Source: Nereocystis luetkeana
Lineage: Eukaryota > Sar > Phaeophyceae > Laminariales > Laminariaceae
Assembly (NCBI GenBank): GCA_031213475.1
Contig: JARUPZ010000021.1
Coordinates: forward strand, 4,192,438-4,256,437
DNA: 64,000 nt
Reading direction: 5' to 3'
This document shows positions 2,840 through 62,661 of this stretch, one piece after another; positions within the stretch are counted from its first letter, which is position 1; each line of letters begins with the position of its first letter. Made by a program: the position numbers and the translations under genes. The notes under the pieces are model-generated. The model had not been told where the DNA came from. It ran no database searches and was given only the letters and a program-made list of their open reading frames with translations.

Positions 2840-3310
2840 GTTTTTTTCACCAAGCCCGAAGCGCCGTGAGGTGTTCAGCGAGTCGTATGAAGGGCGAGCT
2901 GCATCCTACGAAGGAACGCTTGTGACGCAGACTTTCTTCAAGGAGTTGAAAAAAATCCGGCGTGGCCACTTCCAGAGACAGCAATGGGGTACTATTACGG
3001 GGGACCATAGTTAATAGGACCTGTGGTATACATAAAAAACTACCAGGTATATATTTAACCATTTCTACTATTACGGGGGACCATAGTTAATAGGACCAAA
3101 TATTGTTAGTAAAAATGGTTGAATATATACCTGGTAGGTTTTTATGTATACCATGGGTCCTACCGGTATTAACTATGGCCTCCAGGAAGAACAATATTTG
3201 GTCCTAATAACTACGGTCCCCCGTAATATTTATCTGCCTCTTGGGTGCCTTTCCATAAATAGTGCGTGATTCGACCATTCCCCTAGCGTGGAGTAAAGGT
3301 TTTCCACCGG
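2840..3310 (+). repeat. Long R1-type repeat interrupted by nested M1
   Basis: The parts before 2,992 and after 3,229 together match the continuous 7,325-7,580. Examples are GCGCCGTGAGGTGT, AGCTGCATCCTAC, CAGAGACAGCAATGGG, then CTGCCTCTTGGGTGCC and GGAGTAAAGGTT. The uninterrupted copy therefore supplies the empty site for the M1 insertion and shows that TA is the duplicated target. Confidence 0.8.
2993..3228. mobile_element. M1 inserted into M1 (nest 1)
   Basis: The outer copy begins at 2,993. After its block TTAACCATTTCTAC it is broken at a TA by a second M1 (from 3,071, inverted), then resumes with AACAATATTTGGTCC up to 3,228. The outer copy carries TACCAGGTA at 3,041. The inner copy carries TACCTGGTA at 3,128 and TACCGGTA at 3,161, each absent from the family consensus. 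Confidence 0.8.
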
Positions 3311-3791
3311 GGAGGAGGGGTGTACTCGATATCATGCATGGCCGTAGTCGGGGGGGGGGGAATGCAAGGTTGGCTTGGTCTGCCTGCGGTGGTTAGAGGT
3401 CGGTACGAGTATTATGATCGATTGTAATGGGCGTGTTTTTTATATCAATTTTCGGTGAAGTGAAAGCTATAACCGAGATGTGGGACTTTTAAGTCAGCGT
3501 TACGTTATCTTGGGTATGCACTGTAGGCGGAAACAAAGTGTTGCGTACGTATGATTAGTCGTACGTAGTGCGTTTTCTTCTCGCTTGTCCAATCCCGTAC
3601 CTACGCTATTGATGAGTATAGGCTAACATGGGGATGCATTGTATGCCTCCCCCCCCCCCCCCCCGCCGCCTGCTCCATCCCCAAAGCGATGCGTAGTTAA
3701 CCAAGCGTGATCACTGGTCACATGAATAAGGCAAGCAATAAACGAGTACGCCCTCCCCGTTCCGTCAGTCTCATAATCGGTTCTTAGTAGG

Positions 3792-4033: not shown

Positions 4034-4219
4034 TTGCTCCGCCTGGTCACCCCGGTCGTGAGCTACTGCAAGCGGCCGCGTTTATGCCCTCCCATTCCCA
4101 GCAGCGCAGGGTCCACCAGTGTATCATCCACGGGTGTATCACAACATTTGGCGCTGTTCACCCGTTCTCAACCCCCCCCCCCCCGCTCCCTCCCCCCCCC
4201 CCCCCACACACACACTCTG

Positions 4220-6650: not shown

Positions 6651-7178
6651 AAATACATGTCACTGGCCTATATCCTTGACAAGGAAACAAACACATACCT
6701 GGTATAGAATACGCGAACGAATTATCATGAAATTTAGAAATTCAGTACAAATGGGATGTAGACGAGACATATTACGCAGCTTGCAAAGTTGAGTATCAAC
6801 TATATAATCAGTCGAACTCACAGCTGAAGTACTTCATAATTTTATACTGGTAAAATATAACGGTGGACCATAGTAATCAGGACCCACCGTATATACAAAA
6901 AACTATAGATTCCAGCATTTTTACTGAGCAGATGTGGGCCATTTTTACTGAGCAGATGTGGGCCTGATCACTATGTTCTTCCGAGATAGTTAAAAGATAC
7001 AAACCCGGGAATGGTATTGTTCGTGCATGTGCGTTCCCCCTTCCCTATCTGCGTTCCCCCGTCCCTATCTATAGCGTTGCCCCTTCCCTATCTATAAAGA
7101 AATGAGGCTGACCGCAAAGTCTGTGGTGGTGGTGAGGGGGTGGGATCAATGTGTGCCAAGCGGGAGCAGGGTGGCATT

Positions 7179-11006: not shown

Positions 11007-11007
11007 T

Positions 11008-13499: not shown

Positions 13500-14677
13500 T
13501 GCAAGGCGCTCTCAACAGTTATTAAATAGATATGTTTATCCCCGTAACTTTTAATGGGCTTATTATAGTGGTATATAGTTTTGCTCAGAAGCTCACCTTC
13601 GCCGCCAGAGTGTATCTAATCTATACGGCCTGGTCGGTGTGACACTACTCATAGCACTACACGTACCTGCCCATCTCCAAGGTTGTACATCAGTAGCACA
13701 ATCGTGCCGAAACCATGTTGATGAAAAGGGATACACTCCACTCAGTCAGCGCTGACTGAGTAGAGTGGAGTAGTAGGGTACGCCTTCTTCCCTAAAAATA
13801 GATACCTGGTACATGGCAGCGATATAGTCAGTGGTCCCTGCGGCGCGCAAGCCCCTCTCAGGGGTCCCCCGGGAGGGCCTCCACAGCCCCCCCTCGAAGA
13901 CCGCCGGAGACCGAAAAATTGCGACATACCAGAAATAAATGCGCGACTACATTCCCGAAAACCAAGGAACAAAGTGCGTTTAAACGCCTTCCGAACCTCG
14001 AAAAGGCGTGTATCGGGCTGTTTTGGGATCTGTGATGTCTTGAAGAAGAAACGAGCTGAGGTCGCACTTACGTCCAGCACCGCTACACCCAGGTCAATCG
14101 ATACAACAGAGAGAAACATACATACTTCGAAGTACCAGGTATATTAATATTACGTCGCCATTCGCCATCGTCGGCGACGTTCCCAACTCCCAGTCTCTTA
14201 TGTCGTTCCCACCTTGCGATTCGAATGACACATCATCATCATCATCATCATCATCCGCAGCAAACCTGAGGATAGGTCAGCAGTGAAAATCGCATTTTAA
14301 ATTGTGTTTCGGCAAACGGCGAATAGAAACAGGTGCCAATACAACAAGATAGCCTACGGCGAAAAGGAAAAAGGTGCCTAATTTTCTTTGTTCTACTACA
14401 GGCGAATGGAAAAAAGGCCTGAAAACGATTCGCGGGGACTGTTTCGTCGGCAAAGAAAGGCGAATTTGAAAAACAGTGTTGAAACTAAAAAAGCTACGGC
14501 GAAAAAAAAAGGCCGCAACATTTTTTTGGGCCTGTGGCCAAAAACGTTGCGCGCCCAAAATCACCTGTTGCGCAGCGCGCAACCAGGCCCTCCGCGGCTG
14601 TTGCGGAAAACGGCTATTTTGGTCAACATTTTGCGCCAGCGCAACCGCGCAACAGCTAATTATAGCACTGATACATA
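13500..14677. other. No recognised gene
   Basis: Contains two scars (TACCTGGTA at 13,803 and TACCAGGTA at 14,133), a (TCA)n microsatellite near 14,230, an inverted pair TCAGTCAGCGCTGACTGA at 13,741-13,758 (recurring at 15,255), and a GC-rich palindromic patch (TTGCGCAGCGCGCAA, about 14,568). Confidence 0.5.
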
Positions 14678-24011: not shown

Positions 24012-24120
24012 TATTACGGGGGACCATAGTTAACAGGACCTATGGTATTCATAAAAACCTATATATTTAACCATTTTTACTAACAATATTTGGTCCTATT
24101 AACTATGGTCCCCCGTAATA
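24012..24120 (+). mobile_element. MITE M1, near-consensus reference copy
   Basis: Near-perfect copy, with GTTAACAGG in place of GTTAATAGG on the left arm and TA duplications extended to C-TA...TA-G. Confidence 0.92.
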
Positions 24121-24633
24121 GAACACGCGCGTGACGCACGACCAATTCCCAGCTTACAGAGCTGAGTATTGATCAATTCCTTCGTCGAACGGGCAACATA
24201 TACCTTGTACCAGGTATGCGTAAAACGAGATACTTGGTACATTCGAAATACGAGGCCAAAGATACGAGTCGTGCAACTGTCAGATAGATCGAGCGCTCAG
24301 AGCTGTCGACGCTTCGACGTACAGGTTGCCACCTGGCCGTTGCCCACTGATCATTGATCTCAGATCTCCGCTGCTGCGGTCACGTCTCAACTGATCGCAG
24401 GATATGAAATTGTAGGACGTTTTTCGCGGTTTCAAACGTTTCGACGTTTCGACCACGTTTCTTGAAAGTTCGATTCACGAAACCGTCAATCATGGCAGCA
24501 CGTTTACCCTCGCGGGGTTTACCAACTCCCTGCCGCCAAAAGAGGCCAACTTGTTTTACGTCCAGCACGTTTACCCTCCCGAGAATCGTCGGTAGCTTGT
24601 CGTACTTGTCGACCGCTGTGCTCTCTCGGCGCG

Positions 24634-24750: not shown

Positions 24751-25252
24751 GTACGTCTAGAACCGCCACGCGGAGGACTCGCTGTAGACCTTCCATTACA
24801 TCTTACTGCTGCGCCGTGACGGAGCGAACCTTTGCTCTACACATGCACGAGCCCCTTGAGTGTTGGTTTGTGCGTGTGAAAGCACTCATAGCTTTAAGCT
24901 GGTCTCGTAAAGCGGTCTAACGGTGGGTCATGGTAGCTGCAACAACAGCAGTTGATCATGCACAACTCGTGTATGTATTGCTTGTAAATGACAAATACTG
25001 CACTTTGTACGCAAATATAAGGACTGTTTGGATGTGAATATTAATATGAAAGAAGTCCTTACATTTGCGGATGTAGTGGTGTACGGGACTGTCGGAATGA
25101 ATGTCGCGCAGCCAGCTCGCATCAAGCCATCTCGTGGAGGTACATCTCTGAGCTTGTATCATACCAGGTACCCGGTAGCTCTGAGCTCGTACCGTAGCTC
25201 TCAGCCCGTAGCTTTGAGCTCGTGAATGGAAGCGAGGTCCTCCCGCACTCCC

Positions 25253-25440
25253 ACCTCCGCAGCTATGGTATGTACTGTGTCCACACCGATGCAAACTGCT
25301 GTGATGTACTGCTGTATTGCGATCATCGATCCCAGCCAAATGTACCTCCGCAGCTATGGTATGTACTGTGTCCACACCGATGCAAACTGCTGTGATGTAC
25401 CTGGTACTGCTGTATTGCGATCATCGATCCCAGCCAAACG
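25253..25440 (+). repeat. 91-bp tandem duplication
   Basis: Two copies begin ACCTCCGCAGCTATGGTATG (25,253 and 25,344). They are almost identical except that the second contains an extra CCTGGTA at TGATGTA|C. This pair is one of the clean presence/absence cases for the TACCTGGTA scar. Confidence 0.9.
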
Positions 25441-25716: not shown

Positions 25717-25833
25717 TATTTTCGGGGGACCATAGTTAATACCTGGTAGAACCTATGGTATACATAAAAACCTATATGTTTAACCATTTTTACTAACAAT
25801 ATTTGGTCCTATTAACTATGGTCCCCCGTAATA
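25717..25833 (+). mobile_element. MITE M1 carrying a TACCTGGTA insertion
   Basis: Relative to the copy at 24,012, GTTAATAGGACC is replaced by GTTAA-TACCTGGTA-GAACC. The left tip is TTTTCGGGGG. Confidence 0.88.
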
Positions 25834-45900: not shown

Positions 45901-48900
45901 AAGAGCTGGCATCTCTCATTAGGACGAAGGATCAGCACGGAGGCTGGGGTGTGCCGGAAGGAACGGGAAACGCATGCGAGGAACACCCACGTGATACTCG
46001 CGCTATGCATGGAAGCCTCCGCCCGTTGTCTCACACCAAAAGTAACACCAACACCACCGACACCAACACCGGCACCAACAACACGACTAGCACCAAGAAC
46101 GAGTACAACAAAACACTGACAACAGCAAGCACAAAACACTAACAACACCAAGCACAACAAACAACAACACCAACAACAAGCACAATAACAACAACAAGAA
46201 AAACGAAAAAAAAAAACAGAAACACCACCACCACCACCACCGCCACCACCACCACCAACAGCAGCAAGGCACCTCGTAGAAAACAAAACGCAAGAGTACA
46301 ACAGGCCCCACACCTCGAGACAGATCATCTACAGATATATCATCTAGTTCCTAACCTGCCGTTATGGTATGTTGAACAGGATTTGTGCCGTACAGATCCA
46401 ACCCAGGAAAACACGTGCTAGATCATGCAAATCACACGGCTCCCACCCGGCTACATGAGGTAGATCATACAGATCACACAGACCAGGAATATATCTACGA
46501 AGTATATATCTATCTATCTATCTGTATATATATATATATATATTTATCTGGCCTGAAAGATCTAGATCATGATCTGTAGATGGTCTGTCTAAGGTGTGCA
46601 AGGTACCACTCTGGCCGGAACCACAGGAACCGCTTAAACCCTACCATGAATACCAAGCGATCCTGCTGTAATAATCGACCTCCAGAGTGGTGCGCACCAA
46701 CCGCCGCATGCACGCACGCACGCACGCACGCACACACGCACGCACGCACGCACGCACGCACAAAAAAAACAAGCACCAAAACACACCACACGCACACAAA
46801 CAAGGGCACAAGAACGCCTGCACACAGACGGTCAAGACCACTACTGTACACACCTTTGAGGAAACCGTCGGCGGACCCTTGGTCGAGAAGGATCTTGCCG
46901 AGGCTCGGGAAGGGACCGTCCCTCCGCATCACCTCCGTCGCGTCGTACTTCTGAAAAAATATTTAAAAAATAAAATAAAATCATGTTTCGGTCGTGAGCC
47001 AAGAAAAATACAAAAACACCCCCAGACAACCCCAGGGGACACAGAGGGAAGAGGTGTACTCGATGTCACGCATGGCCGTAGTCGTGTGGCCGTAGACTCT
47101 CGCGTCACCCCCACAATGCCTGGACGGAGACACGTGGGGTTTTCACCGACCAGGCGGGCATTGCTTTCGGGAGGGGGGAGGGGGTTAGAGTCGCGGTATG
47201 AGAGAGTGGGTGCCTACATAAATGATTCACACGTCAAACAGATCACGATCTAAGCGTCTACCCTTAGATCATCATCTATGGCACCCCCCCAGATTACCGC
47301 ACTGTAGGGGCATGCTGCCCTCCCCCTACCGCACTGTAGAGATGTGTCACCCCCCCCCATTACCGCGCTGTAAGGGCATGGTACCCTCCCCCTACCGCAC
47401 TGTAGAGGCGTGGCTGCTCACGACCGAGTGCGGCTGGTTGTGATTGACGCGGGGCGCTATAATATGTATCAAGGCGGGGAGCAGAGAGGGTCGTCAAACT
47501 TGGACGATCGTTGTGATGGTTTCAGGTTGCGGTGGTATTGCTGAAGAGCATTGCAAGAAAAAAGCGATAGCGCATTGCCTTGTTGGGTAGCTCGTTCTCA
47601 GTCGAGAATGAGTGGAGTCCCCGTGAGCCCGATATTTTGTTTTCGGCCGAACAGTGCGGCAGGTGTCGTCACCTGCTGCGTCTTTGTCCTGCTGGTTGTT
47701 GTCGTGCGCAGCCTGGTTTGCACGGAGGACGTTAACCCCTTTAGAACCGCAGCCCCGTTTTGGGGACGAACCAGTCAAGTTTCAAGTAGTTTGTCCCCAA
47801 AACGGGACTGCGGTTCTCGAGGGGTTACACGTCTACCCGTCGACAGCATCATCATCGTCATCGTCATCGTCATCGCCATCATCCTTTTCATCATTACCAT
47901 CACCTATCACTACTACAGACGGATTTGTATTCACATCGCAGGCCTCATGATTTCCATCACCTCCACGGAAGAGGTGGTGCCTTGTAGGGGTGGTCGCTTA
48001 TTTTCTGAGCTTTTCACATGAGGAGCTCAACATCTCACCCGGCCAATGACTTCGCAAAAAGTTTTTTTCGTTCGACAACATTTTCTACGCGCTATTTAAT
48101 AGCGGTCCTGAAAACAATTTATTTATACTTCGTAGTATTACAAACTACGAGTATCCCCCTAATATCAGGCAGTTGCCCACCTGAGCTCAGCCGGCCAGAA
48201 AATATTGCCTCAGAGGGCAAAAAAAGTGAAAACCCTTGCCGCCGGATGAGTCTCTTCGGTGAAATGGACCTACCTAGGCCTTGGGATTCGTTGTAGCGAA
48301 CAGTTTTTTTCTTGAAAATAACAACAACAACAACAACAACAACAAAACGGTTTTGGGGTGTGAACAGATAGGAAGTTTCCACAAGCGACTGACTAGCCTC
48401 GGAAAATTCTCAGATTTTTTTTTTAAGGTGCACCCCCCCTACCACCGTAGCATGCACGGGTCTTTGACACCGCGTGTTTTGTTAACCCTCTCGCGACCTC
48501 AAGAGGGAAAAAAAAAGCTTGACAATCAAAATTTGACGAACACGTAACCTACCACTCTGTCCCAACACATAAAAGACCGTCTGTAACACTATCACGGGGG
48601 ACCATATTATAGTAAATAGGACCAGATATATTTATTACGGGGGTCCATAGTTAATAGGACCAAATATTGTTAGTAAAAATGGTTAAATATATAGGTTTTT
48701 ATGTATACCATAGGTCCTGTTAACTATGGTCCACCGTAATAGTAAAAATAGGTAAATATACCGTTTTTTTGTGTGTACCGTAGGTCCTATTCACTATGGT
48801 CCCCCCCCTGATAATATTCGACCAAAAAGGTTCTCCTATTGAGGGACAGAGTAGCACCACAGCAGCGGTCAATTGGCGGATGATGCAATGGTTGGTGTCC

Positions 48901-51900
48901 GAGTTCAACCAATGCAAGGGTTCGTACGCGCAACAAGACCCCCCCCCCCCCCGCAGTGCTGGGGCGATCACGCTGCTCGTAGACCATTGACACCAACCAT
49001 TGTTCTGGTCGCTATTGGGTGGGGGGGGGGGTCCCATCGGGGACATGTGTCCCTTTCTGGGTGAGAGATAGGAGCTCCTACAAGTGAGGAGCCTCAGAAA
49101 TTTCTCGGAAAAAATGCAGATGAACCCCTACCGCACTACAGCAGTGCATACCACGCGTCCGACATCGTGCCCTCCGCGCGAGGTTCATGACGGGACTAGA
49201 GCTGAAGAGCACGCGGTGGCTAGCGCTGAGTAGAGGTTCAGCGGGCAGAGGGGAAAAAAAAACCAAGAGTATATTGCTACCGCTCTGGGGTGGCCGGAAA
49301 TATAGGGACCGTGTAGACAATGATATGATGTGTAACAAGCGGTGCTTATATTCACGTTCAGATAGAGATCTCACAGCGCAGGCGTCGAAGCTGCCCCTGA
49401 CCTGATGGGTTTCACATCCAGGCACACCGCCATACAAATACAGTACAAAACCCAAGTATCCTATCGAGTTGTTTGTTTCTTGCGCTACGAAAAACTGACA
49501 GTTCACAAAGGCAGCACCCGTCTCGCTCACCCGCCAACCAAGGTTCGTCCGTGCCGAGGTACCCGGCGAAGGCTATATTCACCCAGGGACAAGCCGCCAC
49601 TACACCAATGTATCGGAACCCCTCCCCCCTCCCCTCATAGCAAACATTGCGGAAACCCTTTTCGCGTTACGTAAGGGACACGAACAGACATTCGTTCTGT
49701 ACTGGACTGAAATCGGCGCTGCACATTGTCGTCATATTGCGGGGGACCATAGTAAATAGGACCTAACATTGCTATTACGGGGGACCATAGTAAATAGGAC
49801 CAATTATTGTTGGTAAAAACAACGTAATGTGTAGGTTTTTGTGTGTACCGTAGGTCCTATTTAGTATGGTCCCCCGTAAAAGTAAAAATAGAGATCGATG
49901 TAAAGGTTTTCGTTTGTACCGTAGGTCCTATCTACTATGGTCCCCCGCAATAGTAACACCTAAGTGAAGTGATGCTTCATAGTAATACCAGGCACTATTA
50001 CGGGGGACCATAGTTAACAGGACCTATGGTACACATAAACACATACCTGGTATATGTTTAACCATTTTTACTAATAATATTTGGTCCTGTTGACTATGGC
50101 CCCCCGTAATAGGTGACGTTCAACGCCTTCAACACTGCAGAGTCCTGCTTTGGTGGGACAAACGACTCAAATTCTAAATAATATGTCCCCAAAAAACGGG
50201 ACTGCAGTCTTGAACGGGTTAAGAGGTTAAACTTTTATTGCCCGTCCGGATCAGTATACCCACCGGAGGGACAGCAAACATCGCTCACCCGCCAGGCAGC
50301 TTCGTCCGCGCCGAGGTACCCTGTGAAGGCTTTCTTCCCCCAGGGGCAAGCGACCGGGTTGCAGATGGCCGAAAACGCAGAAACGCTTCGATACTTGTCG
50401 GGATTCCTGCCCGACGCACAAAGAAAAAAAAAAAAGAGAGGGAATAAAAAATGCGCCAGTATGTGCACGGTGATAAAAGGGTGAAACTTCCAGGAATTGT
50501 TTTTCTTAGAAGGGTGAAAATTCCAGGAAATTTCGTAAAAAGGTGAAATTTTCAGGAAATTTCGTAAAGGGGTGAAAATTCCAGGAAATTTCGTAAAAGG
50601 GGGAATTTCCAGGAAATTTCGCATCAATACGGAGCTCTTCTTTTTACACGTTTAGGAAACGGCATATCTAGAACAATTAAAATAAAACGGGGTCAACTGC
50701 CGAGAGCGCCTACAAGTAGTGACGTGGGTAGGTGCAATTAGACGCCAGTCGATGAGGCAAGAATGGGCTGGAGTCTCCTCACGATAAAAACGCCTTCTAA
50801 GGCAAGGACCTTAGTGGGGAGGAGGGGGGGAGGCCTGCTTTGTTACCCCGGATCTGAATTACGACTATTAACAGGAAGGAGAGAGAAAAGGAGGGCCAAG
50901 ACAATAAATGGGATGGGAAAAAAATCATGAGAAGAAGATACCGCCAAAATTGTTGCGATAGGACTGAAATATACCAGGTATTACACTACGATCATTACGT
51001 CTGATGCTTTACACCATACTGGTAAATACATTGTCTCTTTCTCTCCAACAGTGTCCAGTCTATTTTTATTTTTATTTTATAAAATTTCGCACCACTCTCC
51101 TACCCTCGTCCTCTCTTGATCGGCCTCCCCCCTTTCACTCTACAGGGAGACTGTACTCGATAAATTTCGGCAAAAAAAAGGTACACCACACGCATGATCT
51201 GACAGTACCGGGGGTGTCCCATAAGAAAAATAACTATTAATACCATTAATAGCCCACTGTTAATATAAATGCAATGGGAAAGGCGCGCTCTACATTGAAA
51301 CTCAAGCTTCCAAGATAACCACGTCGGATTTTTTTTTGGCTTTGTCTCCTTTTTTTGTTCTATCTTGTTTTTTCTTGCCATGACATTGTCAGCGTAGAAT
51401 TTTCTCCACTCGCATGCGTACATACTCCCGCTTTCTCCTTCGTCAGCAGGGGGTTGTGCTCCGGAACAGAAGCGGAAGGAATCGCCACGAAACACATCGA
51501 ACTATTACGGGGGGCCATAGTTAACAGGACCAAAATATTCTTAGTAAAAATGGTTAAACATACCTGGTATAGGTTTTTATGTATACATATACATAGGTCC
51601 TGTTAACTATGGCCCCCCGTAATAATCACAATAGACATACATACACCTAGATCCTGTACTCGCCACTAGGTGCAAGAGCTGTACCGTACAGATAGATCCC
51701 CCACCCGGGGAAAAAAAATAAGACATATCCGCAAGAGCTGTGTCATACAGATCCTACCCGGATACATAGATCATCTAGACCGCGTAAATCATAATCTATA
51801 TCAGGAATATTCCTCCCTCGAAAGATGCAGACCATAAAAAAAAGAATAAAATTCGACGCGAGTCTGCGGAGAGGGAGAAAATATGACCAGCCCTTTCTCG

Positions 51901-54628
51901 CGATGGAAATGGAGGCGTGCACCGTAGCGGGGAGAGGGGACGGGTGCCTGCCACGAGACTCATGGATCCGAACTTAGGACGAAAGCTCGTACATAGGGGG
52001 GGGGAGCTGGGAAGAAAGTATTCCGGGGGGGGAGGAGCACAAAAGCCATACAACCCCTCACGATGATGTACTATGGTTGGTTCTGATCACTACCACCCTG
52101 TCCCGACATATGGTCACCGTTTGGTCCAATAATTAGTGCGAACCGATGCTTACAAAACGGGACAGAATGGTATATATGATCACTGTTCTCCGTATGATGG
52201 TGCAAAGATAAAGAGATGGGTGGACCGGATCTGGACTTAAGGAACGCAACGCACCTGGAGTGGAAGCAACGCGAATACAATCAAATAAGATCGACCACGG
52301 CATCACACCCAAGCTTTGCAAAGAACAAAGAATTACAATGAGGAAAGAAACCGATCACACTCACAGCCTTTAGGCCATCTCTTATGGCAAACCGGTTTTG
52401 GTTTCTGGGAATCGAGGTGTCAGCACCTTCGCAGGCGTGTTTGAACAGGGAAACGGGCGAAGCGGGCCCGCTTTTCTTGAAGTCCACCCAGTCATTTTGC
52501 GAGAGGCATGCAACGCCGTTGGCTGTTTCTTCAGGACAGCATTTTGAAAAATTGTCGATACACACCAATTTCCTCTATTCAGTTTCGGACGCGATCTATC
52601 TGAATAAGAGGCTATTTTTACATTTTTTCGGCTGCACCGTCGATATATATCTGAAAATGCCTTATTGATTTTTTTGTCTGAAAATGACAACATCGTAAAA
52701 ACCTCGGACGACACCCCTGAAGAAAAGAAAAACGGGTCTAGATACCTCTCCCCAAAAGACTGCAGGTATTCTGAAGAGCGAGCCTGATTCGGTCCGACTC
52801 CCGGTCTAAAAATACGCGAAAGCACGTATAAAACACAGTTTCGGGTAAGTTTTTCGGTTTTCAAAACCCTCCCCATCAGAGATGGCCTTAGCCTCTTCAG
52901 ATTATGCCTGGTTTGTTTTTGTTTTTTTTCTCCAGATATATGTGGGATCAACAAAAGCCACAAAAAAAATGTGAAAGGGTATTTTTCACGGTTTTACGCC
53001 GAGCCCTCACCGGAAGGCGACAACGAGGGCCCCGTGTCCCCCCATGGAGTGTCCGAAAACAGAGGCGCGCGAGGTGTCAATTGGAAACTTAGCGCCAATT
53101 AACGCCGGCAGTTCTTGCGTCACGTACTCGTACATACGGTACTGCAAAGAAACGGGGAGGGCGGGGAAGGTAAGGGAGGGGAGATGGGGGGAGGGGAGGG
53201 GAGGGGAGGGGAGAGGGGAGAGGAGAGGAGAGGGGAAGCTGCTTGTTGTTGGGCACGTATAAAAATAAATATGATGCAAATATTTCATCGACTGATCACA
53301 CGGCGGTGCAGATCTATCTGATCTGTCTGCTCTGACTGATCTAGGTCATCGAGTGGGAACATATAGTCTGTCCGAGATGTGACTGCTTTCAGACCATCTG
53401 TTCCCACAGCCGCCACCCCCTGCACCGCCCTCAGAAAGCCAAAGAGCCAATCGCACCCCAACACGAACCGGGAGAGTTCCGCGGAACGTTCCTCAGAAGC
53501 GTTCAAGGGAACGTTCCCTCTCCTCTTCCTGGGACGCACGAGCGCGCTAAAAAATCCCTTCTCCCCGTCCCGAAGACACACGCCTCGCTTGACAACGAAT
53601 TTGTTCGTGTCAACAGTTCTGTTCTCCCGCGCAGGCCTTACTTCCGTACTTTCAGTACTGCTGTAGTAGCGTTTCGGAGGAATCACACCTGGTACAAGAG
53701 TTGACTACGTACCGGGTACGAATTCAGACCCGTGTCGAAAAAGCAAAAATATATTTTGAAAAAAAAAAAAAGACGAAAGCGCTCACGTGGTCTTTCCAGC
53801 CGGGTTCCGTTGCGTCCACGTAAAAGCCTGCCCCGGTGCCGAAATCCCAGCCTTCGTCCTGTGCGAACGATAAAGCCCCGAGACGGGACGAGCAGGCAGG
53901 GTTATAGCTGGAGCGGCCGCTGCTGCTTCTACTGCTGTTGCTGCTGCTGTTGCTGCTTCTGCGCTGGATATTGAGAATTCGCGTTTCCCCCCGTCTAGTC
54001 TAAAAAAACCCGACTGACCCACCAAGGACTGCGTCTTCATTTTGGGGCCATCCTACACACTTGGAATTCGTGTGGGATCGTTCTTGCAGTAGGATGAGAC
54101 CCCCGTCTACGGGGACGTGCAACTTGGAATTAGTGCGGGGGGTCGTTTTCGCAGCAGGAAAATAAACATTTCAAAAGTCTACAGATAGGACCGCAGTCCC
54201 GTTTTGGGGACAAGCTGCTGAGAATTGAATTGGTATGTCCTCCAGAACGGGACTGAGGTGCCAACAGGGTTACTGCGACCCTGTAAGAGTTAAGGGTATG
54301 TACGTATCAACACTTTAAGGGGCGAGGGTGTGTACTTATCGACCCTGTAAGGGTCAAGGGTACGGTCCGTTTTGCCTTTTTTTTGCGTTTTGCTATCTGC
54401 TTCTGTTTTTTTTTTTTTTTTTTTTTTTTTAACTTCGCTTCATCTTTTTTAGGTTTTTGTCTGCTATTAATAGTCTCCTTTTTGCTTCCCTGGTGTCCGC
54501 AGTGGTGGAGTGCGTATGCTTGTTTTTTGTTTTTGCCTCTGTTTTTACTTGAGGTATTTCTTCCACTCGAGAGTTATTGGAGCCTGTCCTGCGACCACGG
54601 ACTGCATTGAATTGTGAGTTAATGTGAG

Positions 54629-54665: not shown

Positions 54666-57600
54666 GCAACAACAACAACATGTCAACCCTGTACGGGTCA
54701 AGGGTATGTGCATATCTACCCTGTAAGGGGCAAGGAAGGGTATGGGCGTATCAACCCTGTAAGGGTCGAGGGTGTACACACATCGACTCTCGTTTTTGGG
54801 GACATCCTATTTGGAATTAGTACTCGAGAGTGTTTTCGCGGTAGAAAAAAAAAAAAAAAAAAAAAAACTGCGTAATGTATATCGTACCTGGTACGACGGA
54901 GGGGATAGGGTGCACCTCTGGAAGTACAAAAGGTTTTCAGAAAACTAAAACCGAACCTGTTGCTTGCGTGCACGTACACTCGTGCACACATCGGGCGGGG
55001 TCACAGATGCCCACATCGTGGTCTAATGTATCACGGATCATCCATTGGCAGATATATCTACTCCTGATCTGTATGATCTGTATGATCTAGCTCATGTTGC
55101 CGGGAGGGAGCCGTATAATATACATGACCAAGCACAAGTTTCCTGGGGTTGGATCCGTACTGCTGTACAGATCCAGCAAAACATCGCATAACGGCAGGTG
55201 AGGACCTGCAGTAGATGCTCTTATCTGTCGATGGTGATCTAGATCATGAGCTACCTGTCCTAGGTGCGCAAGTTCCCCCTCGCAAGTCCCAGGAGGGCTC
55301 ACTCTTCCACGACTGGGTTCCATTTTTTTGGGGGAAAAGACACTTGGAGTTAACCCCTTTAGAACTCCATTCCCGTTTTGGGGACAAACCATTATAATTC
55401 CAAGTCGTTTCCCCCCAATTGTCACCAAAAGGAGACTGCAGTCCTAAAAGGGATAAGAGTGGGATTTTTTTTTTTACAGTATACTCCCTAGACTTTTTAC
55501 AGTGTACTCCCTAGACTACGTACAAGGAAACATATACGTTTACGTGATCAGCCGTACCGCCCTCTACATCAAATTGCACAAAAATTACGAACCCCTCGCA
55601 CATACCAGGTATAGATCATGATCTATCTATCTGATCTGTCTACAGTAGATTATCTAGCTCCTCACACCTGCCGTCGTGAAGGAGCCGTGCAGGATCTGTA
55701 TAGTAGTATAGATCCAACACATGAAACATGAGCTACTATTGGTACCACACGGGTCTCACCCGGCAACATTGAGCTACGTAGACAGTACACGCAATATCTG
55801 CCTTGAAAGGTCTAGACCACCAGGTGGGAATGATCAAGTAATGGTCCGTCCCGAGACGTGAACATAACTAAAAGTCAGAAAAAAATAGATAGCACGGAAA
55901 CAAAAACGCACCTGAAGTCGCGAATCGACTATCTACCCCAAGGTATGAACATGTGTCAAGACAAAACACACCACTCCGAAACCCGAGAATAATCACCGTT
56001 TGTACACTAATATTCATTCGGAAGGATCAGTATATTGAGGGACAGAATGAAAAAGCGGAAACGAAAAACGCACCTCTCCAGCGACGTCGGCGCCCCTCGG
56101 GCTCGTGTCGGGAGCGACGAGGGCAACTCCTCGGGCAGCCGCCGTCCTCATTGCTCCCGCTTTCTGGATGAAGTTCTCGTCCGTGCAGGTCAAGCCCGAC
56201 AGGTAGTACAGGACCTGCGCGAGATGCGGACGCGAGATGTTCGTTATAGCGTCAAGGAGCCAACGGCGAAGGGCGTGCGCGAGATGCGGATGCAAGATAT
56301 TCGTTAGCGTCAAGGGGGCATTTCGCTCATAGCGGGCATCTCGTGACATAGTACAGCACTATTAATAGCGGTCCCTTAGTGCCGGCTGAGTACTGCCGGT
56401 TGCCCGCTATATCGGTGCTTGTGGAATCATTCGGCACAGATGGGATTAGCTATTAATAGTGTGGCAGTGTGTGGAGCATATAGTGCCGGTTGCCGCTAAA
56501 TATAATGCCGGTGTTATTGGCTGGCGGATATCATACAAGCACTAGAGAGGGTCCACGGCCGTACACGTAGGCGGGGGGGGTGGGGGTGTGCTCATTGCCA
56601 TGCATGGCCGTAGTCGTATGATCTTGGATATGTAGCACTTCACACTGGCCTTCTTAGTTATGTGGCCTACATAGGCCAGTCGCTACTGATAGTGTCATAT
56701 AACCAACAGAGGATGTCCAGTGCCCTTCGAACCTCGGCTCGACAAAGCTACACACCCAACGTAAGACCATAGTCGTATGGCCATAGACCCTCGTGTCCCC
56801 CAACGCCGGAACGGAGCACGTCGGGTTTTCACCGACCAGGAAGACACTGATCGCTTGCAACCAAGCGCTGAGCGCCCAGACGGGTTCCGGCGAAAATCGC
56901 ATGAAAAAGGGTACGATGCCCCCCACCCGTGCCAACCCAAGCTTGCGAGGCGGACTCCGGCACCTCGTGCGCACGTTTGCTTGCATACAGATGTCAGCGT
57001 CGAATGTCTCGACCTAGGGAGGCGTTACGAACCCACGGAGAGCCCATGTCATACATTATCCATCGCCCTCATTCCTAGTTACGGGGGGCCATGGAAAACA
57101 GGACCTACGGTAAACACAAAAATCTACCTATTTACCTATTTTTTACTAACAATATTTGGTTCTATTTACTGTGGCCCCCCGTAGTACTGTAGCTCTTGCT
57201 GTTCCTTCCGACGAGAGTCGACGAGGCAAAAGAAAAGGGCTGAGGTCTTGTCGCGATAAAAAAACGCAAGGCACGAAATGCAGTGGAGAGGAGAGAGGAG
57301 GCGTTTCTTTCCTCGTCAACTCGCGTAGAATTACGACCGATAAATAACAAGTGTGGATATATCAACCGTCCACGACTACAGCAGCAGTAGCGCGAGCGCC
57401 CAGCGGTGCGGGTAGGTATACGCTGGCAATTTTGTTTTCGTAGGGAGGTCTCGGGAAAAAGAAAGAAAGCGAGAGAGGGAGCAAAAAAAAAAAAAAACAG
57501 TTTCCAAGGCTTGCGCAGGCTTTTTTCGATAGGGGTCGCTCAAGTTTTTGCGTTTTGTTGGTTGTCATTTTATTTCCGATGCATGTGCCCTCTGCTGCGA

Positions 57601-60600
57601 CGACACCACGAGCGCTACGGTCGAAGCCTCGCCGTGAAAAAAAAAAGAAGGTATCTCGAAAGATCTTGTGCGTAGATCTATCGAAGGTACTGAAATCAAT
57701 GAAGTTCGTTGGAGCACGTGGGATATTTGATCAAAGTTCCCGAACATCAGCCATCCACGACGCCGAATGATAGGCGCCATTGTGGGCAAAAATGTAACGA
57801 CCGTTTGATGTTCATATTTATACCGCAACGGTCCTTACAAAATACGCCCCTCCCTTCCTATAGCCCCTGGCCTGCCTCTTCTCATTATTCGACGTTCGGA
57901 TTTATTTTTTTTCTTTGGGGGGGGGGAGTACTCTGGTTGCCACAATAACAGCAACACGCTGCTTCAACAACAACAACATAGCTAGATAGCTGTAGACCCT
58001 CTGCTCGTATTTACACGAGTTTCGACAAAGTCGTGTACGTATGCTTGCTGTCGGGGTGTCGAGATGGCTCTCTGCCGGCGGTTCGAACGTTCTGGTTACT
58101 CTCGGTCTCGTCCGCAACCGCTCGTCAAAGCCCACCATCGCAGCTTCTTCCTCTACTCTCTGTGCTGTGACTATCTTTGTCTCCAGTCTCGAGTGGGGTT
58201 GTCCGGTGGCGTCGTACGACGGGGCGGAGTATGGTTGCTGCTTGTTGCAACAGCTGTTTAGCATCTGCTTGCTGTAGTGCGCAGCGGACTTTTCAAACTA
58301 CGATTCTAGGTGTAGGTCAGTACATTTCAAGATACTGCTATACGCCAGCTAGCTGTGAGTTCGACCGATTGAGTGGTAAACTATATACCTGGTACACGTT
58401 AGAGCGTCAAAAGTTGTGGTTGTTTCGGCGGCGTGAATGGCCAACCTCACGATTTTGCCAGAACCCCCTCCTTTTTTCTCTTCTTTTTATTTTATCCTCC
58501 TGCGGATTAGTAAAAAAAGATCTTGAGCTCACCACACTTCCACGTTCGTGCCGTGTGCCAATTTAACCCATAGTTCCTGTTGCGAGTACTGAGAAAAGTC
58601 AACCCCCGGTTGGAACAAACGTGCTTTTGTGTGGAAATCCCGGAAACCAATAATCTGGCGTCTGACAATGAGGCGCGCGAGCGCGAAGCGCAGGTATTTT
58701 TTTCTTGGTTCTCCGAGGAAAAAAAGTCTCTTCATAACGGAGAGCAGGATGCCTTGTTTCTAGTTTCTCCGTAACTGTGTGTGTGGGTGTGTGTATGTGA
58801 TTCAACGTTGTTTTCGGCCACATGTATCCGCCGCAATCAACGGACACGGCACCAACGCCAGTCCCGGCGGGCTTTGTCCACGCACACACACTAACGAAAA
58901 CCTGCTCGTGCTGGTGCGGTTGTAAGCCGTTCAGAGTTGGTCGAGCTAGGTGCGGCAACGTGTGTGGGCACATAGCTGGGCCATGATTTAAAAAAAAAAC
59001 GGAACTATAAAATATCATAACGGTTTGTTGTTTTTGTAGTTCTATCTAACGAAACCCAACTCTACGAGTACCCGTAGGCAGAATGTGCCTGTCCACAGCA
59101 ACGTTCGGGCCGTGTCCCAAAGACATGCTGCAGGAAACATTTTCCCCAGGCCCACCCTCCTACCGATAAGGGGATGGAGAAGCAGGAGAACCTCTGCTGC
59201 AGACGTCGTGCAGCAGTAGTAGTAGTAGTGGCACCAGTCATAACGGCTTTTGTTTTTTGAAACCCTACTAACGAAACCCAACTCAACACGTACTCCTACG
59301 CAGAATGTGCCTGCCCATAGCAACGTTCGGGCCGTGTCCTTCAAGACATGGTGCGGGTGGTATTATCAGGCCCACCATCCTACTGATGAGGGGACGGACA
59401 CTCAGGGGAAGCTCTGCTGCAGCTGTCGTACAGCAGTAGTAGTGGGTGGCGCCCTCTACGAGAACCTCTCTCTGTTGGACACATGTCAGGTTGTTTCCTG
59501 TGCGGCTCGATTTCGAGCTTCATATTTGCAGTTTTCATCCCAAAAACGAAAGAACCTGCTTATGCCGCCCAAAAACGCAAAATTCGACCGGATTTTTTTT
59601 TTTTTCGATTTGAGAATCCCGTGGCGCAAGTTGTCAGATTTTGACGTCAAATCCGACGACTTGGGCCGTAAGATTTTCGAATCGAAAAGTGTCATGGTCT
59701 CTACATTCAAGATGTTATCCACGACCGTACGCAGCAACAGAACGATCGATGGGCTGGATGGTGGCACAGCTGTATAGCGACGATGCTTCGCACCCGACGT
59801 GCAGTCGGCGGGCGGCGCGTCTCTCCGTGGCCAGACTATAGTCGGCTGGCGCAGGCTCGGACCTAGAGACCAAGAAAAGCGCACTCGGCGCGCACCTCTC
59901 CGTGGATACGTCTCGCAGACTACAGCAGCAGTAGCAGCAAGCTGCAGCAGCAGTCAGTCACACTGTCCAATACAAAACGCCAAGGCAGGTTGACTCTACG
60001 TAGCGCACTCGGCATGTCTCTTCGCCGCCAGACCAGAGGCAGTCAGCATGGGCTAGAACGCTTAGGTCCTACTGCGCGCAGTGCAGCGCGGTGCGCCTCT
60101 TCGCGGCGCCAGACCACAACAGCGGTAGTTGGCGTCGGCGTTTGCTCGAACCTCTGCACGCGCAACAAATTCGATGTTTCCGCATTGGAAGATTGTTTCG
60201 ATTTGGCGAACTGCACAGCTGAACATGCGATCGGGTCAAAGTCAAATCTGAACCGCTGGGAGGAAACAGCCCGAGACACAGGTGCTGAATTTTCGTCTTT
60301 AAATTATGGGACCATGAAAAGCACGGCACAGCAGTTAGCAGCACCGCAAAAAACAATGGAAATGAAACCGAAAAATTTGGAAAGAAAAAACAAAAATCCC
60401 CGCCCCCTCAGACCCATGCCAATGGAAACGCGAAGCTTAAAAAGTTTTTTTTCAAACACATTGCTTTCAGAGAACAGCCAAAAATTTCCTCGTACCGCCG
60501 CTGTGGGAAAAAAAGAGAAAAAATGTTTGATTTTTTCTTCTTTTTTTCCCCCAACGGCTGCAAGCGGCGCAATTTGTTTTTTCTCGTCGCAAATCGTCAA

Positions 60601-62661
60601 TACGCTGATAGAAATCAGCTCGTACGACGATACACGCTCGATCTCGACATAGACTTAGCCCACGGCCAACCCGATTGGTGTCTGGCAAGGCCAACGAATA
60701 TAGATGAAGGCCTCAAAGGTATCAGGTGGATCCATGGTCTAGGGGGCGAGAGCTTGCCGGCAGCGTCCTACGGTATCCTCCCAAACCTGAAAAAAAGTCT
60801 ATTTTTTGCCATTCGAGACGGATGGAGAAGTTTTGTCTTCTGTTTTGTGCGCACCAGCGGCCAAATGTTTTTTTATCATACACCTGGTCAGCTCCCGCTG
60901 CATGACACCGGCCATGATGTGAAGACGGTGACCCTAGGGTGGGTCGGAGCCCCTAAGGAGCGCACTCGGTTCAGAATTCATGACGCAGTCGTTGGTTTTA
61001 TCGATCGATGTCTGTCAAGGACTCGGAGTCTCGCCGCTTCGAACCCAAGATCGGCCTGAGTTTTTCTCAAGCCGATGTTGGCCCAACATCGGCCCCAGAT
61101 TTGTTTCTTTCGGGCTTTTCCAAAAAATTGGAACTTTTTTTTTCTCCAAACGTGCCCAAATGAAGCGTGTTCTAAACAAATCTGGAGGGTATCTTTGAAA
61201 TTCAAACTTTTTATTGATACTTCGCTTTCCCATTGGCATTGATCTCATGTAATATTTTTCTGCCTGATTGGAACACCTTGCACCGGTCAAAAAATAATAA
61301 AAAATATATACAGCAGAGCTTCTCTCTCAGCCTCGTACGCCGCCCGCCCCTCTCGCGACCACCTCGTCACCGATTCGGCCCGGTTAAAGCTTTCCTTACT
61401 CTCTGCCACAGTGAGTCCCGTCGCCCGCCTCGCGTCAAGCCCGGTGCTCACCGTGGACGTCGTTCGCGAGCTCGGCAAATGTTGTTGTTCAGACTGGGTA
61501 CCTCCCTCTTCCAACTTCAGCATGGTCGCAAAAATAAGCACCGCTTCAATGTTATCTTGCAATATCGAACGACCCTTATATCTCGTACATACTCTATCCA
61601 AAATCATAAATGGAGGCCAGACAGAGCCCGTTCATGCATCCCTCGTGTCTCGAGGCACACGCGGCGCCTAGGCACGAAAGCGGCGATTGCAACCCCCCCC
61701 TCTACCCGCCAGCACCCGCTGACACCCGCGACGGCGCCGGGCTCTCCCGCGGTGCCGTGCTCGGAGTATAAGCACGCGCATGAAACAAAATAAGAAAAAA
61801 AGGAAAAAAGGGCCGAGAGTGCCAAGAGAAATGGAGAAAACAAAGAACCGCTGGAAAGGTCCGGCAAGTAATGAAGGGAGGCGGTTTCGAAGTGGGAGCT
61901 CCGAGAGGCCAGGGATGTACCAACCGAGCACGCTCAGGGAGTGAAATCTAAGTAAGTAGTTCTATACCAGGTATATATAAGTAGCAGGTACCAGAGGAGA
62001 CCGGCCTTAGGAACGCGTCAAGGCCCCTTTCGACATTAATATACTAGTTTTAGAGTGCATCGTCGTTCAGTCGAGGGGTCAAACTACGGTCTCGAGCGAC
62101 CGAAGACGCTGTTCAAAATAGATGACCCGTACTTTTAGACGCGTCAAGGTTTCTTTCTCTTTCGTCCCTTAACGTACTAGGATTATCACGCAAAGTCTGT
62201 CAGTCAAGGAGTCAAAACGGTCAATCAAGGAGTTGTACGTCGCGTCCCCCCTCTTCTTGTCTTACCGGCACAGCAGGTGTCCTGGACGCCGTACGAGGTA
62301 GGAACACTGAGAAAGTCATGGGCGTTTTCGTAGCAACGGACTGGTGAACGTAGCGCAGCAGCCTCCCGCCGAAGCACGAGGTCTCGCTCTTGAGCTCGAG
62401 GTCAGAAGAGCTAGAGCTAGCCTCCCCGGCGGCCGCCATGGCGGTGTCGGTGCCGACTGAACGTGATCGGCAGCTGGATCTAAATAATGACTGTTTTGCT
62501 GCTAGCTTTTGCCGACTGTTATTGCAATTGCTGTGCGAGGTCAAGCCCGGTCTTGATGCTTGTGCTGTTGCGGCAGGAAGTGCCGCCGGGGTGAATGCTG
62601 CAACGCAATGGAGCAACAGAGCGAGCTGCAAAGCAATCGACGCTTGTCCTCTTCGGGTCAT
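42963..62661 (-). CDS. SFGH: S-formylglutathione hydrolase with plastid-type leader
   Basis: Eight exons, 5' to 3' on the minus strand: 62,661-62,266; 56,214-56,074; 53,858-53,787; 53,141-53,011; 50,406-50,289; 46,950-46,854; 45,253-45,180; 43,046-42,963. All introns (645-6,051 bp) are GT-AG with matching phases; 1,113 nt, 370 residues. The enzyme hydrolyses S-formylglutathione to formate and glutathione, the last step of glutathione-dependent formaldehyde detoxification. Family landmarks: [10 protein letters not shown] (138-147), APDTSPRG (166-173), [22 protein letters not shown] with nucleophile Ser235, [20 protein letters not shown] with Asp314, and GYDHSYFF with His348. The family is normally about 280 residues. 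The extra ~75 N-terminal residues comprise a signal peptide (LQLALLLHC), an AAF-TP junction (22-25) and a Ser/Arg-rich transit-like stretch, suggesting plastid delivery. Met75 could start a cytosolic form. The start at 62,661 is preferred over an in-frame ATG at 62,694 for its short basic N-region. Confidence 0.95.
43226..43708. repeat. 27-bp minisatellite bounded by inverted repeats
   Basis: About 13 units of 27 bp (43,301-43,650) share GGTACCGGCACTATTCG plus CAACAACGTC-type ends. Flanks GGGGAGTCCCCAATAGTGCC (43,231-43,250) and GGCACTACTGGGAGCGCCCC (43,677-43,696) are imperfect inverted copies. Because 27 is a multiple of 3 and the unit has no stop, plus and minus frames are open for more than 100 codons, producing false ORFs. 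It lies in the last intron of the hydrolase. A degenerate ~31-bp GATGGGCGTAA-type array follows (43,735-43,920). Confidence 0.88.
43927..44029. mobile_element. M2 copy
   Basis: ATTAATCCTTTTAGGACTGC left, CTGCAGTTCTTAAAG right, with an extra AATTGGGAACAT block in the loop side. Confidence 0.8.
44080..44906 (-). mobile_element. Element E1, copy 1 with ORF
   Basis: About 827 bp. Ends are AGACCTATGCCAATGGTACA and its inverted complement. On the minus strand an open frame of about 145 codons (ending at 44,262) reads [73 protein letters not shown]. Copy 2 keeps the same frame and stop. No known domain is recognised. TACCAGGTA lies immediately left (44,067) and a double scar just right (44,929-44,944). 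Target duplication unclear. Confidence 0.8.
46320..46600 (-). repeat. R4 copy, inverted, with (TA)n expansion
   Basis: Contains the R4 words on the minus strand (CAGATCATCTACAGATATAT, CCAACCCAGGAAA, GATCATACAGATCACACAG), plus a (TATC)n/(TA)n microsatellite near 46,505-46,545. Confidence 0.75.
46605..46695. repeat. Single R3 hairpin unit
   Basis: CCACTCTGGCCGGAACCACA and ACCTCCAGAGTGGTGCGCAC form its outer arms, with AAGCGATCCTG in the middle. It is diverged from the arrays at 29 and 33 kb and stands alone, supporting a mobile origin for the hairpin. Confidence 0.6.
46708..46762 (+). repeat. (GCAC/ACGC)n microsatellite
   Basis: A nearly pure 4-bp repeat, GCACGCAC, just downstream of hydrolase exon 6 (in intron 6). 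Confidence 0.95.
47052..47180 (+). repeat. R1 copy
   Basis: GAGGTGTACTCGATGTCACG through TTTTCACCGACCAGGCGGGC; no long G-run here. Confidence 0.8.
47732..47826. mobile_element. M2 copy
   Basis: Left TTAACCCCTTTAGAACCGC is perfect; right AGGGGTTAC lacks one base of TTAA. Confidence 0.88.
48590..48810 (-). mobile_element. M1 inserted into M1 (nest 2)
   Basis: The outer copy runs to GACCAGATATATT-TA, is broken by an inner M1 (48,633-48,741), then resumes TA-GTAAAAATAGG up to 48,810. The inner copy is of the GTTAATAGG type and the outer of the TAAATAGG type, so two subfamilies are involved. Confidence 0.85.
49285..49365. repeat. Single R3-like hairpin unit
   Basis: CGGAAATATAGGGACCG and AAGCGGTGCTTATATTCACG arms, diverged. 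Confidence 0.55.
49531..49596 (-). pseudogene. Broken duplicate of hydrolase exon 5
   Basis: On the minus strand it reads [19 protein letters not shown], matching [20 protein letters not shown] of exon 5 (50,406-50,289), and keeps the donor GGCGG|gtgagcg. The GKK residues differ and one extra base near the donor shifts the frame. The first half of the exon ([11 protein letters not shown]...) is missing and no acceptor is apparent. It lies 0.7 kb downstream of the real exon, inside intron 5, with M1 elements between. Confidence 0.8.
49735..49952 (-). mobile_element. M1 inserted into M1 (nest 3)
   Basis: The outer copy reads GGACCTAACATTGC-TA, then the inner M1 (49,773-49,881), then GTAAAAATAGAGATCG to 49,952. 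Both are of the TAAATAGG type. The right copy of the TA duplication is now AA. Confidence 0.85.
49996..50111 (+). mobile_element. MITE M1 carrying TACCTGGTA
   Basis: The scar (50,044) sits in the block that reads CCTATATATTTAACC in scar-free copies. C-TA...TA-G flanks. Confidence 0.9.
50128..50222. mobile_element. Diverged M2 copy
   Basis: CAACACTGCAGAGTCCTGCT left arm; ACGGGACTGCAGTCTTGAAC and GGTTAAG right. Confidence 0.7.
50478..50625. repeat. ~30-bp minisatellite in hydrolase intron 4
   Basis: Five units carry GGTGAAAATTCCAGGAAATT plus TCGTAAAAG, with decreasing similarity toward the left. It lies 72 bp upstream (minus strand) of the exon 5 acceptor. Confidence 0.9.
50745..50935 (+). 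repeat. R5 copy
   Basis: GCCAGTCGATGAGGCAAGAA, CACGATAAAAACGCC, CCCCGGATCTGAATTACGAC, ATAAATGGGATGGGAAAAAA. A diverged copy follows at about 51,845-52,010 (CTCGCGATGGAAATGGAGGC). Confidence 0.75.
51503..51624 (-). mobile_element. MITE M1 carrying TACCTGGTA
   Basis: The scar (51,561) lies between GGTTAAACA and TAGGTTTTTATG, where scar-free copies read GGTTAAATATATAGG. The right half also has an ATACATATACATAGG duplication. Confidence 0.9.
51640..51800. repeat. R4 fragment
   Basis: TGCAAGAGCTGTACCGTACA and CAAGAGCTGTGTCATACAGA repeat each other, followed by GATCATCTAGACC. Confidence 0.55.
52366..52894. mobile_element. ~530-bp element with ~23-bp inverted ends
   Basis: The left end is CCTTTAGGCCATCTCTTATG; the right end, inverted, is GGCTAAGGCCATCTCTGATG. 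The minus strand is open over most of it but lacks an ATG near the end and any known domain. Near its left end the minus strand reads [10 protein letters not shown], echoing [10 protein letters not shown] inside E1. It lies in hydrolase intron 4. Confidence 0.6.
53300..53395. repeat. R4 fragment
   Basis: CTGATCTGTCTGCTCTGACTG and TAGGTCATCGAGTGGGAA words; truncated. Confidence 0.5.
54184..54275. mobile_element. Diverged M2 copy
   Basis: GGACCGCAGTCCCGTTTTGG and AACGGGACTGAGGTGCCAAC arms; TTAA ends lost. Confidence 0.7.
54280..54790 (+). repeat. ~40-bp CCCTGTAAGGGTCAAGGGTA repeats around (T)n and (CAA)n
   Basis: Three units at 54,280-54,365 and three to four at 54,690-54,780. Between them lie a (T)n of more than 20 (54,410) and (CAACAA)n (54,631-54,680). 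Confidence 0.8.
55025..55262 (+). repeat. R4 copy
   Basis: ACTCCTGATCTGTATGATCT, GAGCCGTATAATATACATGA, GTTTCCTGGGGTTGGATCCG, GATCTAGATCATGAGCTACC. Confidence 0.75.
55351..55455. mobile_element. M2 copy
   Basis: Left TTAACCCCTTTAGAACTCC intact; right AGTCCTAAAAGGGATAAG altered. Confidence 0.8.
55610..55855 (-). repeat. R4 copy, inverted
   Basis: GATCATGATCTATCTATCTG at the left, CTCCTCACACCTGCCG, GATCCAACACATGAAAC, then AAAGGTCTAGACCACC. Confidence 0.7.
56352..56560 (+). repeat. Dispersed repeat A, copy 2
   Basis: Matches 1,891-2,109. It contains two CTATTAATAG palindromes (56,359 and 56,450); the second sits where copy 1 reads GGGATTATCCAGTGTGG, i.e. it is an insertion relative to copy 1. 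Confidence 0.8.
56569..56960 (+). repeat. R1 copy with ~140-bp insertion
   Basis: The G-rich head and ATGCATGGCCGTAGTCGTAT stop at about 56,620. R1 resumes at about 56,768 with CATAGTCGTATGGCCATAG. The inserted segment has no recognised ends. Confidence 0.75.
57076..57186 (+). mobile_element. Diverged M1 copy
   Basis: AGTTACGGGGGGCCATGGAA left, GGCCCCCCGTAGTAC right; CCTACGGTA subfamily. Confidence 0.75.
57205..57345 (+). repeat. R5 copy
   Basis: GAGAGTCGACGAGGCAAAAG, GTCGCGATAAAAAAACGCAA and AATTACGACCGATAAATAAC. Confidence 0.65.
57775..57850. repeat. Single R3 hairpin unit
   Basis: ATTGTGGGCAAAAATGTAAC / CGACCG on the left and AACGGTCCTTACAAAATACG on the right. Confidence 0.55.
57870..59040. 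other. Hydrolase intron 1 sequence without recognised elements
   Basis: Short G- and T-runs, a (CAACAA) patch (57,965) and one scar (58,386). No exon supported. Confidence 0.5.
59048..59470 (+). repeat. 222-bp tandem duplication
   Basis: Two units begin AACGAAACCCAACTC (59,048 and 59,270). They share GCAGAATGTGCCTG, AGCAACGTTCGGGCCGTGTC, CAGGCCCACC and GCAGCAGTAGTAGT, at roughly 80 percent identity by eye. Confidence 0.85.
59800..60130 (+). repeat. Degenerate GCGCACTCGGC...CGCCAGAC repeats
   Basis: Four blocks of 70-120 bp each contain GCGC(A/G)CTCGGC-like and CTCTTCGC/CTCTCCGTGG plus CCAGAC words. Frames open across it are not considered genes. Confidence 0.5.
60312..61979 (-). repeat. Repeat E2, copy 2, split by E1
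   Basis: 60,312-60,407 and 61,243-61,979 together are the inverted equivalent of 18,096-18,890. The break corresponds to position about 18,811 of copy 1, which gives the unoccupied site. Confidence 0.85.
60408..61242 (+). mobile_element. Element E1, copy 2 with ORF
   Basis: Ends GACCCATGCCAATGGAAACG and, inverted, GATCAATGCCAATGGGAAAG. The ORF is on the plus strand, ending TCGGCCTGA at 61,059; about 84 percent of residues match copy 1 ([42 protein letters not shown]). Most differences seen change the residue, so I see no sign of selection. It lies in hydrolase intron 1. Confidence 0.85.

Follow-up and report, generated by a model that had tools for sequence, protein, structure and literature searches.

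Palindromic scars numbering about 182,000 in the genome of the brown alga Nereocystis luetkeana are very probably footprints left by the excision of a TA-targeting transposon

Transposases of the Tc1/mariner group are described as cutting the non-transferred strand within the element, two or three bases from its end, and the short 3' overhangs produced upon excision become the footprint (PMC2642840, PMC3878927). Sleeping Beauty and Frog Prince target and duplicate TA and leave a symmetric scar with A or T at its centre (PMC3878927), and a palindromic target preference around TA is also reported (PMC7913693). Stowaway and the rice mariner miniature inverted-repeat transposable elements (MITEs) are likewise short, non-autonomous and TA-targeting and far outnumber autonomous elements; their terminal inverted repeat is CTCCCTC and their excision products vary (PMC4423477). 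In Ectocarpus, almost 12,000 Mariner-Tc1 copies, mostly non-autonomous, are reported in a study whose main text contains neither "footprint" nor "excision" (PMC12477816). Here we describe a 64,000-nt stretch of the Nereocystis luetkeana genome (contig JARUPZ010000021.1, C21, positions 4,192,438-4,256,437, of an assembly totalling 465,085,209 bp), hereafter the window, in which the palindrome TACC(A/T)GGTA recurs throughout. These palindromes are very probably the excision footprints, or scars, of a cut-and-paste transposon that targets TA. They share the TA target and its duplication, the symmetry, the A/T centre and the palindromic target preference with Sleeping Beauty and Frog Prince, but five terminal nucleotides (CCWGG, W being A or T) are retained instead of the three found in those systems, and a length of 2-4 bp is stated for Tc1/mariner footprints (PMC7913693). 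Moreover, in contrast to Sleeping Beauty and Frog Prince, about 182,000 natural scars are present in a single genome, and one scar dominates where Stowaway and the rice mariner MITEs leave varied products.

The window contains 32 exact copies of the motif, 17 with CCAGG and 15 with CCTGG, whereas in 100 dinucleotide-preserving shuffles it occurred 0.49 times on average and never more than 3 times; across the whole assembly it occurs 182,395 times and its backward control 1,744 times, and a chance origin is ruled out by both controls. An earlier sequence-only reading of the window had reported these 32 copies and a chance expectation of about 0.5, and had proposed the genome-wide count as a check; all the copies are present and 30 coordinates are exact, those given as 45,805 and 45,812 being in fact 45,806 and 45,813. 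The same reading would have been overturned by a motif always embedded in one longer shared repeat, which is also ruled out, as the flanks differ among copies. Three head-to-tail pairs, 7 bp apart, bring the window to 29 separate sites (Table 1), and a 264-kb region, composed of the window and the 200 kb downstream, contains 123 copies at 113 sites with near-even A:T centres (61:62). Ten adjacent pairs are found among these 123 scars, against about one in a rough random estimate; clustering of scars in the window is not significant (three gaps below 150 bp, p 0.35). A viral source was considered and rejected: nine viral contigs carry the double motif, and each has two to three single motifs in the stretches examined.

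Repeats occur both with and without the scar, and their comparison shows that exactly 7 bp, CCWGGTA, were cleanly inserted where a TA already stood, as the sequence-only reading had claimed. The copy at 25,398 is exactly 7 bp longer than its near-identical tandem neighbour. M1 is an abundant MITE-like repeat of about 105 bp, with ends TATTACGGGGGACCATAG and apparently flanked by TA (window 960-57,190; for example 24,012-24,121 among about 17 aligned rows). When M1 copies were aligned, a comparison also suggested by the earlier reading, the scar was present in 5 of 17 hand-picked rows, of which two overlap and one is partial, and at three different places. In the 264-kb region, 14 of the 113 scar sites have homologues on both flanks, giving 165 pairings with an empty copy (a single TA) and 9 with a scarred one after other spacings and 350 hits without the right flank were set aside; these pairings are not independent, because many share the same M1 copies. 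Likewise, 157 M1 alignments over this region, a listing that spans both strands and in which loci can appear twice, contain 119 insertions of at least 3 bp, the scar being the commonest class longer than 4 bp.

Upon removal of the scar, the reconstructed targets display a symmetric preference, WANNAYR-TA-YRTNNTW: a purine and a pyrimidine enclose TA, Y and R lie beyond them, and A/T is favoured at a distance of seven bases. Within the window, 15 of 29 scar sites fit YRTAYR, as do 322 of the 3,368 background TAs, and W at +/-7 in 54 of 58 scar flanks against 3,424 of 6,736 background positions; the summed divergence of the targets is 2.01, with at most 0.98 in 5,000 resamplings. The preference is weaker yet present in the 264-kb region (YRTAYR at 37 of 113 sites against 1,327 of 13,505). 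This symmetry therefore suggests a TA-specific, transposase-like placement of the scars. A preference for palindromic targets around TA is reported for Tc1-like elements, with ATATATAT for ZB (PMC7913693), and a palindromic target around TA, AAGTACTT, is described for the pogo element Passer (PMC9976928).

The scars also appear to age. Words differing from the motif at one position number 114 in the 264-kb region against 24 for the reversed control, and all nine positions are hit, which is the outcome expected of neutral ageing; the excess is smaller in the window (26 against 12.6 expected under a Markov model). TACCSGGTA words, 11 against 1.5 expected in the 264-kb region under a Markov model, may be decayed scars as well. 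The ratio of decayed to exact scars, about 0.7 in the 264-kb region and 0.4 in the window, fits a build-up over a long period, and if 1e-8 mutations per site and generation are assumed, it would be enough for each genome to gain one or two scars every hundred generations. The "very active" transposon proposed from the sequence is consequently not required, since the spread of scar ages would fit slow accumulation. A functional palindrome, such as a protein-binding site or a chromatin signal that spread or was selected, could account for the very high copy number, the palindromy and the extended symmetric flanks, but we regard it as highly improbable: no base is protected among the one-base variants, only some repeat copies carry the clean 7-bp insertion at TA, and two scars stand where a MITE was.

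This MITE, D18, is about 79 bp long, with TA duplications and inverted ends 5'-CCACTCTG...CAGAGTGG. Its best copies are flanked by TA, five of them measuring 82-83 bp from TA to TA, and the two ends of four copies differ at 1, 3, 4 and 5 of their first 20 nt, TA included. D18 displays the MITE features tested (small size, inverted repeats, target duplication and many copies), with 32 loci at E<=0.01 in the 264-kb region for a profile built from eight hand-picked copies, and it is the only TA-CC inverted-repeat family there besides M1-internal, poly-C and simple-repeat pairs. In some places D18 and a spacer form the unit of an array: the window has such arrays at 28.95-29.28 kb and at 32.5-33.15 kb, and the 264-kb region has one at 183.4-184.0 kb. 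At 33,073 spacer follows spacer, with TACCTGGTA instead of D18 between them, and at C21:2,786,951 a second D18-less junction carries TACCAGGTA, in the order spacer-scar-spacer-D18. A genome-wide junction search allowing up to 3 mismatches, the counts of which are lower bounds, detected these two scarred D18-less junctions, one CCTGG and one CCAGG, and no spacer-spacer junction with a bare TA; the opposite centres suggest two events.

The insertion sites of D18 resemble those of the scars in part. On the scar-derived target profile they score a mean of 0.27, against -0.93 for the background and -1.35 for M1 (p 5e-5; 32 hand-picked ends), and W at -7 is found in 26 of 32 D18 ends and, after dropping array repeats and broken ends, in 19 of 23 (p 0.0015). 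M1 shows a target preference unlike that of scars and D18. The two strands of the whole genome together contain 4,141 occurrences of TACCACTCTG with W at -7, against 237 for the control, but the W share was not used as a test because only W was counted and, among the 100 ends listed, many have longer flanks in common. In the 264-kb region, a D18 copy at 133,255 lies within the TA of a scar, an arrangement that would yield a double scar on excision.

Based on these observations, we consider it likely that the scars are Tc1/mariner-like footprints made of 3 nt of one element end and 2 nt of the other, and that D18 and an autonomous partner are their main source. A TA-targeting transposon of the IS630/Tc1/mariner type would insert at TA, duplicating it, and later leave, and repair of the break would leave some nucleotides from the element's termini enclosed by the two TAs. 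In the case of D18, the transposase would cut three bases inside the 5' ends, producing CCA 3' overhangs on both sides, which might be joined by a one-base overlap with A opposite A, then filled and resolved to A or T; alternatively, one A might be lost from one side. Each scar would thus consist of 3+2 nt, CCA-GG or CC-TGG, and D18 together with its predicted autonomous partner would have written most of the roughly 182,000 scars over a long period. The head-to-tail doubles would arise when a new insertion hits the TA of a scar already present. Of the traits of IS630/Tc1/mariner elements, the duplicated TA target, the terminal inverted repeats (in D18) and the palindromic target preference are found, whereas the usual 2-4 nt footprint, which is not strictly defining, is replaced by one of 5 nt plus TA.

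Several points weigh against this reading. A strict 3+2 outcome is unexpected, because CCA overhangs do not pair. Mos1, whose ends begin with CCAGG, leaves CCA/TGG footprints; in the present case scars with CCA alone are not clearly enriched (79 against 72 for the reversed control), and neither are 3+3 products (2 against 0). The link between D18 and the scars is thin because only two D18-less array junctions are known, and the match between the targets of D18 and of the scars is only partial, because scars strongly favour A at -6 (0.46) and D18 ends do not (0.25). D18 copies look, by inspection, far more diverged than most scars, and scars are about fourfold more numerous than D18 loci in the 264-kb region (123 against 32). 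In addition, no transposase was found in a search that covered only six six-frame chunks and ten open reading frames (ORFs): Pfam matches in 6 of about 26 six-frame chunks were confined to an esterase, a thioredoxin and a sub-cut-off RA_2 match, and the ten ORFs gave none. Tentatively, uniform repair in a family that leaves almost nothing but scars may have produced the roughly 182,000 identical 7-bp inserts, each excision being joined in the same fixed way, whether by CCA ends overlapping at a single A.A or by a 5-nt stagger of a kind not known from Tc1/mariner elements.

The latter is central to the donor envisaged by the sequence-only reading, another TA transposon with ends CCAGG or CCTGG, whose 5-nt 3' overhangs would pair C-G and C-G around a central A.A or T.T mismatch. 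Such an overhang accounts for the strict CCWGG and the even centres without special repair, and thus explains the strictness better than 3+2 joining, yet without a donor. It also parallels Sleeping Beauty, where CAG gives C(A/T)G; a published table lists C(A/T)GTA footprints for Sleeping Beauty and for Frog Prince (PMC3878927). Nevertheless, in the 264-kb region CCWGG half motifs at TA (90 against about 64 expected with equal base use) have no common continuation, and CCWGG-ended inverted pairs, within 1,500 and 900 bp, are all scar-scar pairs. No CCWGG-ended, TA-flanked element was found in the window or the 264-kb region, no genome-wide search for one having been made, and the only donor caught by the comparison of occupied and scarred sites, D18, has CCACTCTG ends. 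Under the CCWGG-ended donor, the scars at the D18 junctions would reflect coincidence or a related process: D18 would have to be lost twice from its array, and each time that very TA would have to acquire a foreign scar, although no bare-TA junction was detected. We therefore regard this donor as rather unlikely and D18 as the better-supported one; what holds of the earlier interpretation is the footprint of a TA-targeting transposon, on the grounds of insertion at TA and symmetric preference, and not the CCAGG/CCTGG ends with their 5-nt stagger.

The same shortage of CCWGG-ended donors nearby, along with the number and uniformity of the scars, could also be expected if the assembly were somatic and thousands of TA-bounded elements had been removed from it in the course of development, like the internal eliminated sequences of ciliates, leaving the palindromes as junctions. 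This programmed elimination seems very unlikely. Empty TA alleles dominate among repeat copies, the graded decay fits old, inherited scars, and D18 copies persist in the same assembly; furthermore, we know of no ciliate-type programmed elimination in brown algae. The preferred reading thus remains excision by a Tc1/mariner-like transposon, with D18 and its partner as the likely main source.

Table 1. Scars and D18 copies in the window (positions from the first base of the window)
Feature	Position	Strand
Scar TACCAGGTA, inside M1 copy	3041..3049	
Scar TACCTGGTA, inside M1 copy	3128..3136	
Scar TACCTGGTA	6696..6704	
Scar TACCTGGTA	13803..13811	
Scar TACCAGGTA	14133..14141	
Scar TACCAGGTA	24208..24216	
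Scar TACCAGGTA, then head-to-tail TACCCGGTA	25162..25170	
Scar TACCTGGTA; adjoining tandem copy without exactly these 7 bp	25398..25406	
Scar TACCTGGTA, inside M1 copy	25740..25748	
Scar TACCAGGTA	26647..26655	
Scar TACCAGGTA	26693..26701	
Scar TACCAGGTA	27833..27841	
Scar TACCTGGTA	28661..28669	
Scar TACCAGGTA	28717..28725	
Double scar TACCTGGTACCTGGTA	29932..29947	
Scar TACCTGGTA, replacing D18 between two array spacers (key site)	33073..33081	
Scar TACCTGGTA	35479..35487	
Scar TACCAGGTA	36529..36537	
Scar TACCAGGTA	38198..38206	
Scar TACCAGGTA	44067..44075	
Double scar TACCAGGTACCTGGTA	44929..44944	
Double scar TACCAGGTACCAGGTA	45806..45821	
Scar TACCTGGTA, inside M1 copy	50044..50052	
Scar TACCAGGTA	50972..50980	
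Scar TACCTGGTA, inside M1 copy	51561..51569	
Scar TACCTGGTA	54885..54893	
Scar TACCAGGTA	55603..55611	
Scar TACCTGGTA	58386..58394	
Scar TACCAGGTA	61965..61973	
D18 copy, array unit	28954..29036	+
D18 copy, array unit	29131..29213	+
D18 copy, array unit	32537..32623	+
D18 copy, array unit	32716..32798	+
D18, TA-CCACT...AGTGG-TA, array unit adjoining the scar at 33073	32894..32976	+
D18 copy	46604..46692	+
D18 copy, right end broken	49278..49365	+
D18 copy, TA-CCACCCTG...CAGAATGG-TA	52091..52172	+
Weaker or partial D18 matches	25001, 29447, 48550, 55970, 57777, 61522	

Other short words and repeats were also recorded. As a candidate second footprint, TACCGGTA exceeds Markov expectation in the window (7 against 0.81) and in the 264-kb region (14 against 3.5), but is no commoner than its reversed word (14 against 15). 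TAC(A/T)GTA (83 against 34) and TACGAGTA/TACTCGTA (44 against 10), counted in the 264-kb region against an order-4 Markov expectation without a reversed control, are possibly footprints of further Tc1-like families. At 43,299-43,645 of the window, a 27-bp unit that includes the palindrome GGTACC is repeated 12.9 times in tandem. An inverted repeat of about 95 bp, with TTAACCC...GGGTTAA in its best copies (window 2,355; 7,900; 11,731; 29,358; 31,175; 40,003; 47,732; 54,182; 55,350), is presumably a piggyBac-type MITE, given its TTAA, and is read through in four predicted proteins found by search. The esterase is represented by an exon at 62,221-62,691 on the minus strand, which has seven database matches, one of them 99% identical, and an Ectocarpus sp. 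protein 63% identical over 41% of the query. A 20-mer of M1 matched one contig (JALZWD010000061.1, L010) filed in a metagenome-assembled genome of the bacterium Flavimaricola sp., and three scars are present in the 8,000 bp of it examined. The motif is not enriched in that 2.2-Mb genome as a whole (5 against 8 controls) and three of the five copies lie within L010, which is probably contaminating eukaryotic (algal) DNA.

Excision scars are usually few and varied, and the size and uniformity of the present set are unusual. Among the literature matches listed, no paper title reporting such scars was found, which is weak evidence of absence. The 5-nt scar puts to the test the statement that Tc1/mariner footprints measure 2-4 bp. 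If the reading is true, target choice, repair outcome and transposition rate could be measured by counting the roughly 182,000 identical scars, which would record past transposition as a succession of hops open to dating. A DNA transposon could then act mainly by leaving 7-bp inserts rather than itself.
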